Shown here: positions 7,052-26,731 of the stretch, piece after piece
Position numbering within the stretch: position 1 is the first letter of the stretch
Layout: every line of letters begins with the position of its first letter
IMG/VR virus record: IMGVR_UViG_3300036466_000233
Location: 1 to 29,447 of that record
Strand: one strand, 5' to 3'
Origin: a virus
DNA: 29,447 nt
The notes under the pieces: generated by a model
What the model saw: the letters and a program-made list of their open reading frames with translations, nothing else
Told to the model about the DNA's origin: nothing
Databases searched by the model: none
Position numbers and translations under genes: made by a program

Positions 7052-7395
7052 TGTTACCCCAGCCAAAAGCGCGCCGCGTCAGGGAAGCGCTGCCATGCGA
7101 TGGCCATGGCGAGCGCATTGCTGGACTCGAGACTCGCGCAAAAGTCTTGGAAATGCAGGTTGCAGACACTATTCGCGTGTTGCAGGAGATTAGCGAAAAT
7201 CAGAGAATTTGCACAAAGAAAGTCGTGTTATTAATCGAGTCGCAGGAGAAACAAGTGGAGCTACTGTCTGGCATTTTGGCAGCCTGCAGAATTGGAGGCG
7301 ACATACGAATGCTGAGTGGGCGATGGGGGCCAACTCTTTTGTTCACTACCGGGGTTATCGCGGCAATTGAATTTATCAGAAGGATCCTGTTGTGA
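7051..7395 (+). CDS. Coiled-coil membrane protein, holin-like candidate
   Basis: 114 residues, ATG in a TAATG overlap with the preceding stop. Residues 20-70 are an amphipathic helix with heptad character (ERIAGLETRAKVLEMQVADT), followed by one hydrophobic segment near 93-112 (TLLFTTGVIAAIEFIRRILL) with positive charges at the end. A soluble coiled coil plus a C-terminal anchor is a layout seen in phage lysis-region proteins. The role is inferred from its neighbours; holin or accessory membrane protein are both possible. Confidence 0.5.
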   Translation: MLPQPKARRVREALPCDGHGERIAGLETRAKVLEMQVADTIRVLQEISENQRICTKKVVLLIESQEKQVELLSGILAACRIGGDIRMLSGRWGPTLLFTTGVIAAIEFIRRILL

Positions 7396-8222: not shown

Positions 8223-8591
8223 ATGAAAATAATCTACCTAGCATTATTCGCAACCGCAATCTCGTTTCAGGCATTCGCCGGGGATGTTGATAACCGCTAT
8301 CTTCCCGATGGCGTAGAGATTGCGCGCAACGCTGACGGATCAATCAAGCGCAGTTCTGCGATGGTTGCCAAGTTTCGCCGGATTCATCCTTGTCTGGATA
8401 CGGGGAAAACTACCGGCCCATGCCCTGGTTGGCAGGTGGATCACATTATCCCGTTGGCATGTCGTGGCCGTGACGTTATCGAGAACATGCAGTGGCTACC
8501 GATCAGAATAAAGATTAGAGAAAAGTGGGCGTCCGTTAACAAGGACGAATGGGAGCGAATCGTGTATTGTAAAAATCAGGAGAATAAATAA
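8223..8591 (+). CDS. Exported HNH nuclease
   Basis: 122 residues from ATG 8223; a GTG two codons upstream overlaps the previous stop and is an alternative. The N-terminus is a signal peptide (MKIIYLALFATAISFQAFAG, cleavage near residue 20). The mature part has the HNH core 'GWQVDHIIPLACRGRDVIENMQWLP' (split: D73-H74, N88), with Cys57, Cys67 and Cys80 possibly forming disulphides. It should act outside the cytoplasm, either on DNA in the periplasm or on DNA released at lysis. It lies in the lysis cassette, not with packaging genes. Confidence 0.75.
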   Translation: MKIIYLALFATAISFQAFAGDVDNRYLPDGVEIARNADGSIKRSSAMVAKFRRIHPCLDTGKTTGPCPGWQVDHIIPLACRGRDVIENMQWLPIRIKIREKWASVNKDEWERIVYCKNQENK

Positions 8592-10515: not shown

Positions 10516-11088
10516 ATGATAAAACTCATCGCCACGATTATCGCTGTTGCGGTAACTCTACTGTGGGCGCTCCATGCCTATAACAACTGGTCGCGCCCCG
10601 CTGTGGGCGTTCCTACGGTAGCTACTGAGGCGCCCGCCTTAAAGGGCGCTCCAGTTGAGGAGATTATCGTCAAAGCGCCGATAAAAGTCCGATCCGGTGA
10701 GGCTGTGAAGCGGAAATTGCGCTTGACAGAACCAAATATCGTCAATCCCGAAATTGTGGTGGTAGCTGCCAGCGAATTAAAACCAGATACTCACCCGGTG
10801 GATGTAATATCCACTCTGAATAAAGAGACCGGCGCTATCGAAACAGTAGTGGTGCGGAAAGAACTGCCTTGGCTGGATTTAAAATCCAGCGGGAGAGTGT
10901 GGGGTGGGCCGGGATTGCAGAATGGACAGCCAGCCGTTCAGGTTGGCGTCATCCAAGATTTTATCGCGGTGAAGGGAATCGTGCTTTCCGGTATCGCCCA
11001 CGCTACCCAGGTAACTGGCGGGAGCGATATTCACAACCCGATTCCGTTAACAACTTTTGTTGGGGTTACTATCGGGACTACGTGGTAA
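10516..11088 (+). CDS. Membrane-anchored protein of unknown function
   Basis: 190 residues from ATG 10516; an in-frame TTG four codons earlier overlaps the previous gene. Residues 2-23 are a membrane anchor or signal (MIKLIATIIAVAVTLLWALHA), followed by a Pro-rich, positively charged linker and a beta-rich domain ending 'PLTTFVGVTIGTTW'. It is the last gene of the rightward late operon and converges with the leftward operon. A role in the envelope (spanin-like or superinfection exclusion) is possible. No family is recognised. Confidence 0.45.
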   Translation: MIKLIATIIAVAVTLLWALHAYNNWSRPAVGVPTVATEAPALKGAPVEEIIVKAPIKVRSGEAVKRKLRLTEPNIVNPEIVVVAASELKPDTHPVDVISTLNKETGAIETVVVRKELPWLDLKSSGRVWGGPGLQNGQPAVQVGVIQDFIAVKGIVLSGIAHATQVTGGSDIHNPIPLTTFVGVTIGTTW

Positions 11089-11118
11089 TCCATTTGTCCT
11101 GATAAAAATTTTGGTGTT

Positions 11119-11382
11119 TTATTTGGGGGATAGCGCCGTGATCCTATCAGCATCCACATATCGCACCCGCTTTATGTGCTCACGACCTGACCAGTTCCGC
11201 TCCCCGAATACCAGTATTTTCGCCCTGCCGCTCTTTGTTGTTCCGATCAGGATGCACTTCATTTTGTAGTACGATACCGAGCGCCCTTTACAATGAGTGC
11301 AGTGCAGGTTATGAGTGGCATCCACCAACCCGGCGTTCGAGCGCACGGGCAACAGCGCGGCATCTTTTTCAGTTTCATTCAT
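11119..11382 (-). CDS. Small CxxC protein, last gene of the leftward operon
   Basis: 87 residues with an AGGAG site before ATG 11382. 'HNLHCTHCKGRSVSYYKM' contains a CxxC pair that could bind zinc. The rest is basic and beta-like, with no membrane segment. It is the promoter-distal gene of the leftward operon. No family is recognised; its coding status is supported by the ribosome site and tight packing. Confidence 0.5.
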   Translation of the reverse strand: MNETEKDAALLPVRSNAGLVDATHNLHCTHCKGRSVSYYKMKCILIGTTKSGRAKILVFGERNWSGREHIKRVRYVDADRITALSPK

Positions 11383-11390
11383 GGTTTCTC

Positions 11391-11654
11391 CTAGCGCTGT
11401 TGCCCGGTGCTCAACTTCACGTTATACCCCACCTCTGTTGCACAGCCTGCCGAGCCAGTTCTTGAGTTTTTCTCGATTGTGGTTATGTATCGCAATGCTG
11501 TTTCAAATCGGCTTTCTCCCGGAAACTTCCGTTCCACCGCATAGATCAATTGGTCATATTTCGCTTCGTCCGCCGTGCGCGCCTTCGTAAACTGTGAAAG
11601 ATCAAGGTCGCGCTTGTCGTCGGCTAACTTTACGGTCAAGTTTCCGTTTTTCAT
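11391..11654 (-). CDS. Small hypothetical protein
   Basis: 87 residues, ATG overlapping the TGA of the upstream 50-residue gene (ATGA). It is charged and helical ('DDKRDLDLSQFTKARTADEA'), with no signal peptide. Tight coupling on both sides supports real translation. Function is unknown. Confidence 0.45.
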   Translation of the reverse strand: MKNGNLTVKLADDKRDLDLSQFTKARTADEAKYDQLIYAVERKFPGESRFETALRYITTIEKNSRTGSAGCATEVGYNVKLSTGQQR

Positions 11655-14107: not shown

Positions 14108-14135
14108 TTCACTTCTCCTTTTAAAATCTGTGAAC

Positions 14136-14474
14136 CTAACCCGCATTCAATTGGGCCATCACGTAATTGCCACGCCACTCCATGCCGTCAGGCCACTCGC
14201 GGCCCTCGTAGTCGCACTGCTCCTCATCTAGGTCTTCGTCCGCCGGGCGCATTTCCTTGTCAAGCGCCTGTGCAAAGTGCGTCAGCTCTCCGGCTGCCAC
14301 GAGCTCAACTTCGTCCGCCCACTCATCGCAATCCAGATACCTGTCAAGCGCAATTTTCGCTTGTTTGTCACGCTCCGCTATCTCGCGGAAATAAATCATC
14401 CCGTCGCCTTCTGGATCATAAAGCCAATAGCGATACTCGGCGCTCGGGCGGTACTTTTTGTCTATTTTTTCCAT
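14136..14474 (-). CDS. Acidic hypothetical protein
   Basis: 112 residues from ATG 14474 (AAAAGGAGACGAA before it); the frame continues upstream, but without a site. The protein is very acidic (Asp/Glu) with aromatic motifs such as YRYWLYDPEGDGMIYF and WPDGMEWRGNYV. A highly acidic, compact early phage protein could be a DNA mimic or inhibitor, but this is speculation. No family is recognised. Confidence 0.5.
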   Translation of the reverse strand: MEKIDKKYRPSAEYRYWLYDPEGDGMIYFREIAERDKQAKIALDRYLDCDEWADEVELVAAGELTHFAQALDKEMRPADEDLDEEQCDYEGREWPDGMEWRGNYVMAQLNAG

Positions 14475-22320: not shown

Positions 22321-22551
22321 ATGGCACGAACGCTGGAAATGTTTGATAAACCGCGAAAGAAGCGCGAATGGTTGATGCACGTTGTTGACTGCGCGAACGG
22401 AAATTGCGGAGAGCTTGAGGACGGCGAGCAGGTGGTGGCAATGGTGTGCGCCAGGTGCGGGCACGAGTCAGGATGGATTTCACTGCCAAGTATGACTGCG
22501 GCAAAGAGAGGGCTTCCATGCCAGGAGTGCAATAAGGTGCCCAACGTATGA
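22321..22551 (+). CDS. Small Cys-rich (zinc-ribbon-like) protein in cassette-like unit
   Basis: 76 residues from ATG 22321 (GGAG nine bases upstream). It has Cys pairs in 'VDCANGNCGE', 'VCARCGHE' and 'LPCQECNK', consistent with zinc binding. The stop codon TGA (22549-22551) lies inside attC-like site B, as is common for integron cassette genes. The longer in-frame start upstream would run through the preceding palindrome and is less likely. Confidence 0.5.
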   Translation: MARTLEMFDKPRKKREWLMHVVDCANGNCGELEDGEQVVAMVCARCGHESGWISLPSMTAAKRGLPCQECNKVPNV

Positions 22552-22603
22552 GTTCACCGGCTGGCCGCTTTTGGCGAAGCTCCCCTGGAATGATGGGTTG
22601 GGC
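22539..22603 (+). repeat. attC-like recombination site (site B)
   Basis: R''-type box GCCCAAC (22539-22545) and R'-type box GTTGGGC (22597-22603) are exact complements and fit RYYYAAC/GTTRRRY. Between them 'TGAGTTCACCGG' and 'CCCCTGGAATGA' give L-box-like arms around a GCCGCTTTTGGC hairpin. The length of 65 bp is in the attC range. Confidence 0.65.
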
Positions 22604-22635
22604 CGCGACCCCAGACTTTTGAGAGAGGAATGGAA

Positions 22636-22851
22636 ATGTACATTTTGCCGCAACCGCATAAGTGCCCGAAATGTGGCCACGAATGTCAATTCAGCCCACA
22701 CGAAGGACACGGAGCGCCAGTGTTTAACTCCGGGCCGGTGTGCCCAAAATGCTGGGGAGAGTTTGTGCTATCCGTAGCGCCGATCATGGATTGCGTAACG
22801 CTCTCACGGAATAAGGACGAGACGCCCAACGTAATATATACGACAAAATGA
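22636..22851 (+). CDS. Small zinc-ribbon protein in cassette-like unit
   Basis: 71 residues from ATG 22636 (AGAGGA with 6-nt spacing; ATG 22630 is too close to it). Two CxxC pairs, CPKCGHEC (residues 10-17) and CPKCWGEF (about 36-43), predict a zinc ribbon. The 3' end runs through a box GCCCAAC (22824-22830) that complements the GTTGGGC at the beginning of this unit, and the reading continues for some codons past it, suggesting the original cassette end was lost. Confidence 0.5.
   Translation: MYILPQPHKCPKCGHECQFSPHEGHGAPVFNSGPVCPKCWGEFVLSVAPIMDCVTLSRNKDETPNVIYTTK
22824..22830 (+). repeat. Orphan attC-type R'' box (end of cassette B)
   Basis: GCCCAAC followed by GTAATA; it is the exact complement of the R' box GTTGGGC at 22597-22603. 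No further attC arms follow, so the site is truncated. Confidence 0.45.
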
Positions 22852-23666: not shown

Positions 23667-24194
23667 ATGAAGCAAAAAAAGTGTAAGGCGTGCAAGGAGC
23701 TTTTTACTCCCAGCAGGCCACTGCAATCTTTTTGTGATTTTGATTGCGCTCTTCTGGTGGCGAAATCATTGAGACAAAAGGGTGAGCGAAAAGAATTGAG
23801 GGCGGCGCGCGTTAAGGCCAAGACGCGCCGGGACTGGATAGCAGATACTCAGGCAGCAGTTAATCGATACATTCGCGCCAGGGACGTTAAGGCAGGGCTA
23901 CCATGCATATCATGCGGCAGATTTCACCAAGGGCAAAACCATGCTGGGCATTACCGCGCTACCAGCATAGCTCCCGCGATTCGATTCCATCCTGAAAATA
24001 TTTGGCTTCAGTGCCAGCCATGCAACGTACATAAGCACGGCAATTTGCTGGAATACAGGATTGAGCTGATAAAACGGATCGGCGTAGAGCGAGTAGAATG
24101 GCTGGAATCTGATCACGAGCCAGTGAAGTATACAATTTTGCAGCTAATTGAAATAAAAAAAGAATATGCAGCACTGCTGAAGGGATTAAAATAA
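23667..24194 (+). CDS. ninG: NinG recombination protein
   Basis: 175 residues. An N-terminal zinc knot (C6, C9, C23, C27) in 'KKCKACKELFTPSRPLQSFC' and a second Cys-rich core 'CISCGRFHQGQNHAGHYRA' (C80, C83, H92/H95) with 'QCQPCNVHKHGNLLEYR' (C116, C119) are the hallmarks of lambda NinG (Rap). This family binds branched DNA and helps resolve recombination intermediates during phage growth. The length is close to the usual 180-200 residues. Confidence 0.9.
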   Translation: MKQKKCKACKELFTPSRPLQSFCDFDCALLVAKSLRQKGERKELRAARVKAKTRRDWIADTQAAVNRYIRARDVKAGLPCISCGRFHQGQNHAGHYRATSIAPAIRFHPENIWLQCQPCNVHKHGNLLEYRIELIKRIGVERVEWLESDHEPVKYTILQLIEIKKEYAALLKGLK

Positions 24195-24207
24195 ATACAC
24201 AAATATG

Positions 24208-24236
24208 TTGCATTACTCAAATAATTGTAGTAATAT
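24208..24236 (+). promoter_or_regulatory. Promoter for the small membrane protein
   Basis: TTGCAT (24208-24213), 17-nt spacer, TAATAT (24231-24236). ATTAC and GTAAT arms within the spacer form a short inverted repeat that could be an operator. An own promoter is typical of cassette-like or moron genes. Confidence 0.55.
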
Positions 24237-24281
24237 GATTTCACGGTTCAGGAAAAGCCGGATAATTTAGGAGTAGCGAAC

Positions 24282-24413
24282 ATGGACACAGCATCAGAAA
24301 CCGTATTAGGCATTATGCTTTGGTGGGTAGCTGGGATGATCATTACCTTTGCTATCGGCAAATACTTGGCAGGTGTTGTCGAGTTCAAGGATTGGAAATG
24401 GCCTTGGAGATAG
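24282..24413 (+). CDS. 43-residue single-helix membrane protein
   Basis: MDTASETVLGIMLWWVAGMI ... WPWR. One membrane helix (about residues 8-30), then an amphipathic Trp/Lys end. An AGGAG site precedes the ATG. It lies behind its own promoter and ends just before attC-like site C, the usual position of a cassette gene. Function is unknown. Confidence 0.55.
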   Translation: MDTASETVLGIMLWWVAGMIITFAIGKYLAGVVEFKDWKWPWR

Positions 24414-24416
24414 ACA

Positions 24417-24478
24417 CCCCCAACGTATGAATTCAGCGGCTCGCGCTTCTGCGAGTCCGCTGGAATGATGGGTTGTGC
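24417..24478 (+). repeat. Best attC-like recombination site (site C)
   Basis: CCCCAAC (24418-24424) and GTTGTGC (24472-24478) flank TGAATTCAGCGG-CTCGC and GCGAGTCCGCTGGAATGA. The inner arms pair almost perfectly apart from a single extrahelical G and a single extrahelical T on one side, leaving a GCTTCT loop. Asymmetric extrahelical bases in the folded strand are the distinctive property of integron attC sites. The R'' box deviates from RYYYAAC at the first base and R' has a T at a purine position. Confidence 0.7.
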
Positions 24479-24499
24479 GTCAATACTACGGAGTGAGGA

Positions 24500-25246
24500 A
24501 TGAATGAGTTGGCACTTTTTGCAGGGGCAGGAGGAGGTATCTTGGGAGGGAAGCTGCTTGGATGGCGCACCGTCTGCGCTGTTGAGTTTGCTGCCTACCC
24601 TCGGCGCGTCTTGCTTGCCAGACAGCGCGACGGAATGCTTGAGCCTTTCCCAATCTGGGACGATGTGCGAACCTTTGACGGAAAGCCGTGGCGCGGGAGA
24701 GTTGATGTCGTCAGCGGTGGATTCCCTTGCCAAGACATTAGCAGCGCCGGGAAGGGGGCTGGAATCAGCGGGGAACGTAGCGGATTATGGGGAGAGATGG
24801 CACGCATTATTAGCGAAGTACGACCCCGCTTTGTGTTTGTGGAAAACTCGCCAATGCTCACTATTCGAGGACTTGGAACAGTCCTTGGAGATTTGGCCTC
24901 GATGGGGTTTGATGCAAAATGGGGAGTGCTGGGAGCAGGACATTTGGGAGCGCCCCACCTTAGAGAGAGATGCTGGGTTGTGGGATACCCCATGCAAAGG
25001 GGATGCTCACCCAAGGGCATACAACCGGAACAAGATTTACAGCGGGGCAGGGCAGAAACATTTGCAGGCTCAGGCTTACGAAAAATTAACCCCTCATTGC
25101 GTGATGGGTGGAAAGCTGAACCCGCAATGGGTCGAGTGGTTGATGGGATGGCCGATGGGATGGACAGAATTGCCGCGCTTGGCAATGGACAGGTTCCAAT
25201 CGTGGCGGCTACAGCATGGCGGATTTTGACGCACAACGTAAAATAG
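24500..25246 (+). CDS. dcm: DNA (cytosine-5) methyltransferase, cassette-borne
   Basis: 248 residues behind GTGAGGA. It shows FAGAGGG (motif I, 7-13), GGFPCQDIS with catalytic Cys77 (motif IV), ENSPM (VI, 115-119), APHLRERCW (VIII) and GNGQVP (X, 228-233). It transfers methyl groups from SAM to cytosine; no cognate restriction enzyme is visible, so protection or regulation is likely. The target domain is short (about 60 residues). The unit lies between R' GTTGTGC (24472) and R'' GCACAAC (25231), the latter inside the stop region (LTHNVK). A second frame overlaps almost all of it. Confidence 0.9.
   Translation: MNELALFAGAGGGILGGKLLGWRTVCAVEFAAYPRRVLLARQRDGMLEPFPIWDDVRTFDGKPWRGRVDVVSGGFPCQDISSAGKGAGISGERSGLWGEMARIISEVRPRFVFVENSPMLTIRGLGTVLGDLASMGFDAKWGVLGAGHLGAPHLRERCWVVGYPMQRGCSPKGIQPEQDLQRGRAETFAGSGLRKINPSLRDGWKAEPAMGRVVDGMADGMDRIAALGNGQVPIVAATAWRILTHNVK
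24504..25229 (+). CDS. Overlapping family-like frame within the methyltransferase gene
   Basis: 241 codons open in the +1 frame, starting at ATG 24504, four bases after the methyltransferase ATG. The text 'ADYGERWHALLAKYDPALCLWKTRQCSLFEDLEQSLEIWPRWGLMQNGECW' (quoted in pieces) and 'GGKLNPQWVEWLMGWPMGW' matches a conserved sequence I know from databases as a phage 'methylase-associated' protein. The resemblance runs over most of the frame. Both frames therefore look constrained. Whether it is translated is unknown. Confidence 0.45.
   Translation: MSWHFLQGQEEVSWEGSCLDGAPSALLSLLPTLGASCLPDSATECLSLSQSGTMCEPLTESRGAGELMSSAVDSLAKTLAAPGRGLESAGNVADYGERWHALLAKYDPALCLWKTRQCSLFEDLEQSLEIWPRWGLMQNGECWEQDIWERPTLERDAGLWDTPCKGDAHPRAYNRNKIYSGAGQKHLQAQAYEKLTPHCVMGGKLNPQWVEWLMGWPMGWTELPRLAMDRFQSWRLQHGGF
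25231..25237 (+). repeat. Orphan attC-type R'' box (end of methyltransferase cassette)
   Basis: GCACAAC, the exact complement of the R' box GTTGTGC at 24472-24478. It is followed by GTAAAATAG rather than an L box, so the rest of the site is missing. Confidence 0.5.
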
Positions 25247-25298
25247 CCCCCAATAAATAACCTAAAATTTTATCAGGACAAATATATTAGGTGTGATA

Positions 25299-25481
25299 AT
25301 GGCTGATGAGGCAGATAGAGGCAATGATCGAGCGCAGGAGTGGCTGGATGATCAGATTGCTGCATCACGCAGGACGCTTGATCCGGGCAATCCTGGCGAC
25401 TGCGATAAATGTGGGGAGCATTCAGGTAGGTTGATATTCGGGAATTGTGCTAGATGCCGTGACCGATACAGGCTACCATAG
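25299..25481 (+). CDS. DksA/TraR-type C4 zinc-finger protein
   Basis: 60 residues from ATG 25299 (AGGTG site; the GTG two codons earlier lacks one). C35-x2-C38 and C50-x2-C53 in 'CDKCGEHSGRLIFGNCARCRDRY' (23 residues, in part) form the four-Cys finger of TraR-like proteins, after an N-terminal helical 'MADEADRGNDRAQEW' segment. Such phage TraR homologues bind the RNA polymerase secondary channel and alter host promoter activity. Confidence 0.75.
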   Translation: MADEADRGNDRAQEWLDDQIAASRRTLDPGNPGDCDKCGEHSGRLIFGNCARCRDRYRLP

Positions 25482-25605: not shown

Positions 25606-25642
25606 CTTTGGGGCCGGACAACGCTAAAACCCAATTTACATA
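25606..25642 (+). repeat. 37-bp direct repeat, copy 1
   Basis: Matches 26695-26731 at 36 of 37 positions. It contains GGACAACGCTAAAACCC. In this copy CTAAAACCC also pairs with GGGGTTTTTAG near 25704-25714 and CATAAAA with TTTTATG, forming a long hairpin with a GCGC-GCTTTT-GCGC tip. Confidence 0.85.
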
Positions 25643-25716: not shown

Positions 25717-25889
25717 GTGGCGGTGGCCGAATTGGTAGAGGCGCTACCTTAGATGCCGAAAGCGGAAACGCCAAGGTAATAGCGGGACGCTCTAGAGCGT
25801 GTTGCCGGTGCGGTTGCCTCATGAGTGAGAAGGGCAATCGATCCGGGAGGGCACTCAGAATCCAGGTTCGAATCCTGGCCGCCACACCA
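25717..25889 (+). tRNA. tRNA-like gene with about 85 extra nucleotides between D- and T-arms
   Basis: The ends are canonical: acceptor GTGGCGG (25717-25723) with CCGCCAC (25879-25885), D-arm GCC...TTGGTAGAGGC, T-arm CCAGG-TTCGAAT-CCTGG, and encoded CCA (25887-25889). The total is 173 nt against 75-90 expected. The presumed anticodon stem TACCTT (25745-25750) pairs with AAGGTA (25773-25778) around a 22-nt loop, so no anticodon can be read with certainty (UAG in the 5' part, GCC at the 3' edge). A perfect 14-bp palindrome lies at 25787-25800. It may be an interrupted tRNA, one with an extreme variable arm, or a pseudogene. Confidence 0.6.
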
Positions 25890-25893
25890 AAGG

Positions 25894-25933
25894 CCCCTAA
25901 CGAAAAGTTAACTGGCGCAGCGCCGGGTTGTGC
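25894..25933 (+). repeat. attC-like recombination site, short (site D)
   Basis: CCCTAAC (25895-25901) ... GTTGTGC (25927-25933) around GTTAACTGGCGC-AG-CGCCGGG. The site is shorter than usual (about 40 bp). The 14-nt GGGTTGTGCGTCAA at its right end is shared with site C. Confidence 0.45.
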
Positions 25934-25955: not shown

Positions 25956-26120
25956 ATGTTACGAAAAACAGATAAATTTTTAAAACGCCACGCAAAAGTT
26001 TGGGAGCGTGGGCCTCGCAAAGATGAAATTGTAACTGAAATTGTTAGGCGTGAAACTTGGTGGATATTATTCATAATTCCAGTTTTAAGCATAGATACAA
26101 TTGTAGATAAACCGCGATGA
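25956..26120 (+). CDS. 54-residue protein in cassette-like unit
   Basis: MLRKTDKFLKRHAKVWERGP ... DTIVDKPR behind AAGGAG. A basic N-terminal half is followed by a hydrophobic segment (ETWWILFIIPVLSIDTIV) that may anchor it to the membrane. The stop TGA sits two bases before box GCACAAC of site E. The unit from GTTGTGC (25927) to GCACAAC (26122) is a complete cassette-sized element of about 200 bp. Confidence 0.5.
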   Translation: MLRKTDKFLKRHAKVWERGPRKDEIVTEIVRRETWWILFIIPVLSIDTIVDKPR

Positions 26121-26121
26121 C

Positions 26122-26185
26122 GCACAACGTTCAAATTGAGGGGCTGCGCGCTTTTGCGCAGTCCCGCTTGAGCGTAGGGTTGGGT
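26122..26185 (+). repeat. attC-like recombination site (site E)
   Basis: GCACAAC (26122-26128) and GTTGGGT (26179-26185) flank a long imperfect hairpin with tip CTGCGC-GCTTTT-GCGCAG, extended by GGGG/CCCG and TCAA-type arms. The left box is the exact complement of the GTTGTGC that starts the preceding unit; the right box belongs to the next one. Confidence 0.6.
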
Positions 26186-26694: not shown

Positions 26695-26731
26695 CTTTGG
26701 GGCCGGACAACGCTAAAACCCAATTCACATA
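26695..26731 (+). repeat. 37-bp direct repeat, copy 2
   Basis: 36 of 37 positions match 25606-25642. Here it is followed by only CAGGAGG and then TTTTATGCAAT, which also occurs after the longer hairpin of copy 1. Confidence 0.85.

Follow-up and report, generated by a model that had tools for sequence, protein, structure and literature searches.

The hairpin at 24418-24478 (+) of a 29,447-nt viral contig (IMG/VR record IMGVR_UViG_3300036466_000233, analysed over its whole length and called the window below) is very probably a genuine integron recombination site (attC) carried by a bacteriophage, as judged from its sequence and fold rather than from any assay of recombination. It belongs to a small mobile gene cassette carrying a C5-cytosine DNA methyltransferase, and phage cassettes of this sort carry their gene the opposite way round from bacterial ones, which points to a phage-adapted pool of exchangeable counter-defence genes. 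Clusters of attC sites in phages, with methyltransferase cargo and activity with IntI1, are already known (Qi et al. 2023, PMC9892861). As far as the searches made here go, the flipped gene polarity as a rule, an attI-like head shared between phages, a one-cassette difference at this head and the larger set of uncultivated phages are new.

The window carries genes encoding a DnaB-like helicase, NinB, NinG and terminase. The hairpin lies between a 43-codon ORF (24282-24413) and the methyltransferase gene (24500-25246). As DNA, the + strand folds to -16.3 kcal/mol (shuffles: mean -7.39, sd 1.96; z -4.55; 0 of 200 as good) and the - strand to -14.0 kcal/mol (z -3.32; 1 of 200). The sequence-only reading, which proposed a 62-bp attC-like site with an extra G and an extra T on the same side, is confirmed for the arms and the extrahelical bases, and its interpretation as attC is supported. 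With full boxes, however, the limits of the site are 24418-24478 (61 bp). Furthermore, it is the + strand, and not the - strand, that has the sequence of the recombinogenic 'bottom' strand, and the site belongs to the methyltransferase cassette downstream and not to the small gene upstream. The promoter attributed to this small gene is not supported, since only 1 weak sigma-70-like match was found in 24150-25320 whereas 1.3 are expected.

A scan of genome contigs with the right arm of the site gave 68 loci, many of them with whole arrays of similar sites. In an alignment of 55 bacterial sites, the two extrahelical bases fall on one arm, and the extra T and G of the window site occupy the same positions on the right arm of the + strand. 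The paired columns covary far above shuffles (0.328 against 0.125; 0 of 500 shuffles reach it). The covariance model built from bacterial sites only (R1) finds four sites in the window: 24418-24478 (61.0 bits, E 4.9e-13), 22539-22603 (57.3 bits, E 3.8e-12; 83% identical to the former) and 26122-26185 (46.0 bits, E 2.1e-9), all on the + strand, and a long site at 11323-11427 on the - strand (30.6 bits, E 1.2e-5). As the right arm served as the pattern for choosing the bacterial set, the first two scores are not wholly independent, but the other two are. Specificity is good: at E up to 1, only one of 80 loci of TerL relatives (L005, a close relative) and two of 80 loci of NinG relatives (L224 and L227) have hits, although the model does not cover all attC types. 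Indeed, phage PH101/H101 gave one weak hit (E 0.046) and P12002L none. BLAST searches of GenBank phages with two bacterial attC sequences found only MW202573 and nothing. The site shares its type with bacterial integron arrays, GCCTAACGTATGAATTCAGCGGCTGCCGTAGGCAGTCCGCTGGAATGATGGGTTAGGC in a beta-proteobacterium against CCCCAACGTATGAATTCAGCGGCTCGCGCTTCTGCGAGTCCGCTGGAATGATGGGTTGTGC in the window, and another viral contig (L004) has it at 98% over 58 bp. Its outer boxes, CCCCAAC / GTTGTGC, show one departure each from the RYYYAAC (probable) and GTTRRRY (PMC9892861) consensus, and in the circular form GCACAAC / GTTGTGC would pair perfectly.

In an integron array, the right box of a hairpin (R'') comes from the same cassette as the next left box, and this pairing is clear among R1 hits. 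In phage loci, the next box pairs over a longer run in 151 of 177 cases (own box in 11, ties in 15; mean run 8.24 against 3.94), and in bacteria in 68 of 86 (7 own, 11 ties). On the modelled strand, a cassette is therefore C-hairpin-GTTRRRY-gene-RYYYAA. For the 24418-24478 site, the neighbouring left box pairs over only 4 nt, whereas the right box GTTGTGCGTCAA (24472-24483) has a 12-nt partner, TTGACGCACAAC, about 755 nt downstream at 25226-25237. This defines a cassette (cassette B, 24424-25236, +; limits inferred at AA^C, where ^ marks the cut) that comprises C, the hairpin, GTTGTGC, the gene and GCACAA, and ends at the far box GCACAAC (25231-25237, +; junction GCACAA^C). Its cargo, 24500-25246 (+), matches PF00145 (E 2.6e-27) and phrog_363 (E 4.2e-64), and its TAG stop (25244-25246) lies beyond the cassette end, in the attI-like flank. 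This gene overlaps almost wholly with a second ORF in another frame (24504-25229, +; 241 aa) that also matches DNA-methyltransferase families (phrog_1008, E 1.4e-15; phrog_26627, E 6.1e-12), an apparent dual coding.

The 22539-22603 site starts cassette A (22545-22829, +), which contains ORF 22630-22851 (weak zinc-ribbon similarity, below cut-off) and has GCCCAAC (22824-22830) as far box, but it cannot be assigned by pairing, as near and far partners both pair over 7 nt. The left box of the 26122-26185 site is also the far end (11-nt partner) of a cassette with ORF 25956-26120, whose start may be a degenerate, short attC-like sequence at 25895-25933 (+; 13.5 bits, E 0.17), but the 26122 cassette itself has no convincing far end. 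With the cut placed at AA^C, the array ends at 22830 and 25237, and in L005, are plain insertion junctions. The 11323-11427 site (105 nt, -) holds in its loop the ribosome-binding site and ATG of ORF 11119-11382 (-), so that folding could control translation. With three sites at 22539, 24418 and 26122 and no match to TIGR02249 in the record, which may be incomplete, the window fits a CALIN (attC cluster lacking an integrase), if this is taken as two or more attC within a few kb without intI nearby, rather than a complete integron.

In standard integrons, the gene would lie opposite to the strand with the extrahelical G and T, and this is what the bacterial arrays show. Each interval of 150-1,600 nt between neighbouring sites was scored by the longest ORF on each strand, with a 1.3-fold margin. 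Bacteria gave 4 same, 76 opposite and 18 unclear of 98, and an independent control found with a second pattern, in 399 genomes of one order (13 with a match) and in three of the earlier genomes, gave 1 same, 22 opposite and 3 unclear of 26, i.e. 5 and 98 overall. By contrast, phage records gave 72 same, 13 opposite and 68 unclear of 153 intervals in 42 loci; by locus majority, 29 are same, 4 opposite and 9 tied or undecided, against 1 and 37 in bacteria. Fisher p is 6e-32 by interval, but intervals within a locus are not independent. Homology agrees: the longest ORFs on the attC strand (122 members, from 124 of 171 intervals) match 22 Pfam and 103 PHROG families, and those on the other strand (122 members) 1 and 1, although this set still contains three integrase-bearing loci (L247, L264 and L266). 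In the circular GenBank phage MW202573, the deposited genes of the array and the attC sites share the + strand, whereas phage TJE1 has the standard orientation. In 41 of 72 flipped phage genes, the stop codon lies beyond the cassette end, in the next attC or flank, as for the window methyltransferase, against 11 of 76 standard bacterial genes, a count that rests on longest ORFs.

The phage count excludes contigs with an integrase (L247, L264, L266), contigs taken to be copies from shared hit patterns without alignment (L280, which also has an integrase, L254, L262, L275, L269) and TJE1 (L164); with them, it is 81 same, 28 opposite and 83 unclear of 192. L309 was left out of the combined bacterial count as it repeats L096, and the two intervals of the window exceed 1,600 nt and are in neither count. 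Hits above E 0.0096 among the TerL-relative loci, a hit at E 0.12 in the scan of GenBank phages, the hit on the second strand of L249 1027-1083 and four others (L159 second strand, L112 6428-6482 on both strands, L111 1-43) were also dropped before counting. The five bacterial intervals with flipped genes have no PHROG match, so they give no evidence for a passage of phage cassettes through bacterial integrons.

Among the larger contigs with such arrays, terminase and portal proteins were found in four (G017, G048, G018 and G045) and a portal or head protein in two (G050 and G025), whereas for G036 and G047 the scan shows only an amidase-like and a DarB-like match. A full integron integrase over the cut-off is present in 4 of 47 records, but neither in the window nor in L005. 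The same-strand phage cassette ORFs include 12 of 122 with an N6/N4 methylase domain, 2 Dam, 2 Mom, 1 D12, 1 C5 methylase, 1 Tad2-like and 1 Acb2/Tad1 hairpin (counts are per family and may overlap). The 109 bacterial cassette ORFs match 65 families. The window methyltransferase fits the phage pattern. The usual phage cargo (DNA methyltransferases, Mom, anti-Thoeris and anti-CBASS-like proteins, names such as anti-Thoeris being those of the Pfam models) suggests that it serves to evade host defence.

Where the far partner of a hairpin is not at another detected site, the flank after it is an insertion junction. Read on the other strand, 9 of 37 distinct phage flanks have an attI-like box, GGTGTCTA-N6-GTT (phage box TTTAGGGTGTCTATATTACGTT), with at most one mismatch in GGTGTCTA, 8 of them starting at -14 and one at -15 from the GTT, against 0.15% of 664 background GTTRRRY sites. 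However, 26 of the 37 flanks lack the box at 2 mismatches or fewer. In the window, the flank at 25238-25253, read on the - strand as TTGGGGGCTATTTTAC^GTT, has the box GGGGGCTA at -14 with 2 mismatches to GGTGTCTA, a level that 3.2% of background sites show. A scan of viral contigs for the extended box alone returned 8 contigs, one already known (L089). Around the box in the 7 new ones, R1 finds attC in 4 at E<0.001, one of these cut by the contig end, and in a fifth at E 0.018; in whole records, 4 of the 8, L089 included, have attC at E<=0.01, and none of the 8 has an integrase. One contig with TerL and portal genes and no detected attC (L334) has two tandem attI-like boxes, each followed by a GTT box, at about 14133-14194, and is a candidate empty landing site.

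Two phage contigs from different metagenomes, L089 and L335, differ at this site by exactly one cassette. Their 117 nt up to ...TTTAGGGTGTCTATATTAC, where the junction lies, are identical; L335 then has 526 bp with one attC and one open frame on the attC strand, and continues with 595 nt identical to what follows the junction in L089. L339, from the metagenome of L089, matches L335 at 99.9% over 3,365 nt and its contig ends at the GTT. L335 carries an anti-repressor and an O-like replication protein. This is gain or loss of one cassette at the attI-like site. No related phage carrying the region of the window without cassettes was found: a BLAST of the window against the TerL relatives (80 kept of 283) and the pattern-found contigs, not including the NinG relatives (80 kept of 257), gave in the cassette region only attC hairpins and the methyltransferase, so the empty site of the window itself is not shown.

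These data are best explained, with good confidence, by a mobile integron cassette whose 5' part is the hairpin. It is inferred that an integron integrase of the host, or of a co-infecting element, works in trans on the folded + strand hairpin, and excises and inserts the cassettes at the attI-like site. The array keeps the normal order (attI-like site, cassette, attC) but its genes read toward the attI-like end. A new cassette would thus be added at the 3' end of a phage operon, without polar effect on older genes, and transcribed by read-through from the phage. The recombinogenic strand is also the sense strand, which is single-stranded on the lagging-strand template when fork and transcription run together, and in transcription bubbles, and this could favour folding; exposure during phage replication, transcription or recombination is also part of this inference. 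Slightly more likely than not, phages own a separate, integrase-free half of the integron, made of orphan attI-like landing sites at the 3' end of operons and a phage-specific pool of cassettes with flipped genes, rich in counter-defence, exchanged through the integron integrases of the bacteria that they infect. This would be the mirror image of bacterial integrons as stores of anti-phage defence.

Passive capture of a piece of a bacterial chromosomal integron by homologous or illegitimate recombination, leaving fossil sites that no longer exchange, is unlikely but deserves consideration, as the window has no integrase, some of its parts look decayed (25895-25933) and Qi et al. (PMC9892861) suggest such capture for some phages. 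However, bacterial arrays have the opposite gene polarity, so a copied block would look different; moreover, cassette boundaries are intact, with a 12-nt far partner, and a one-cassette difference is seen between related phage contigs. The flipped polarity could also be an artefact of bacterial integrons mis-binned as viral or of wrong strand choice by the ORF caller, given that 4 of 47 records do hold an integrase and that 68 of 153 intervals are unclear by ORF length. This is very unlikely, since mis-binned bacterial integrons would show the bacterial polarity, homology decides 22 Pfam families to 1, TerL and/or portal proteins lie in several of the same contigs, and the deposited genes of MW202573 agree. 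Finally, the hairpin lies just upstream of the methyltransferase gene and folds well as RNA (-30.6 kcal/mol, z -5.06), but an attenuator, terminator or leader converging on attC is very improbable: there is no run of T after the stem, the terminator scan finds nothing there, sequence and not only fold matches attC, and near-identical DNA precedes an unrelated gene in L004.

The phage CALINs of Qi et al. (PMC9892861) likewise are attC clusters without intI, with methyltransferase cargo and attC sites active with IntI1 (5 of 6 tested there), and MW202573 and TJE1 are among their phages. In the sections of that study consulted, neither flipped polarity relative to attC as a rule, nor an attI-like head shared between phages, nor a before/after pair is reported, and a literature search restricted to open-licence papers listed no work whose title or abstract start tells of flipped cassette genes in phages. 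Gene cassettes of chromosomal integrons of beta- and gamma-proteobacteria share the attC type, boxes, extrahelical bases and cassette unit, but have the gene on the other strand relative to attC and a cargo not dominated by DNA modification. Like attI sites of integrons, the phage heads have a box upstream of G^TTRRRY; the heads of three IntI-bearing records read TGTCGNNGAATTTAA^GTT or similar, and the phage heads GGTGTCTA-N6^GTT, although some bacterial arrays (L322, L318, L096) have the phage-type box too. If phages swap counter-defence genes one cassette at a time through host integrases, resistance to bacterial defence can spread between phages by site-specific recombination and not only by homologous mosaicism. 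The flipped polarity separates the phage pool from the bacterial pool, as such a gene would be antisense to the promoter of a bacterial integron, and gives a simple test for where a cassette comes from.

A 37-nt direct repeat (97%; 25606-25642 and 26695-26731, +) brackets the segment with the ORF 25956-26120 cassette and the 26122 attC site. A 43-nt inverted repeat (84%; 11086-11128 and 25247-25289) shows that the sequence just after the methyltransferase array head recurs after the gene that follows the 11323-11427 site. In L005, the cassette region is bracketed by short GC-rich hairpins (about 7100-7135 and 8306-8335). Lastly, a tRNA-like sequence at 25717-25886 (+; Rfam tRNA, 35.9 bits) has about 100 extra nt in the anticodon region and is not called by ARAGORN; it is possibly an intron-bearing or tRNA-mimicking element.
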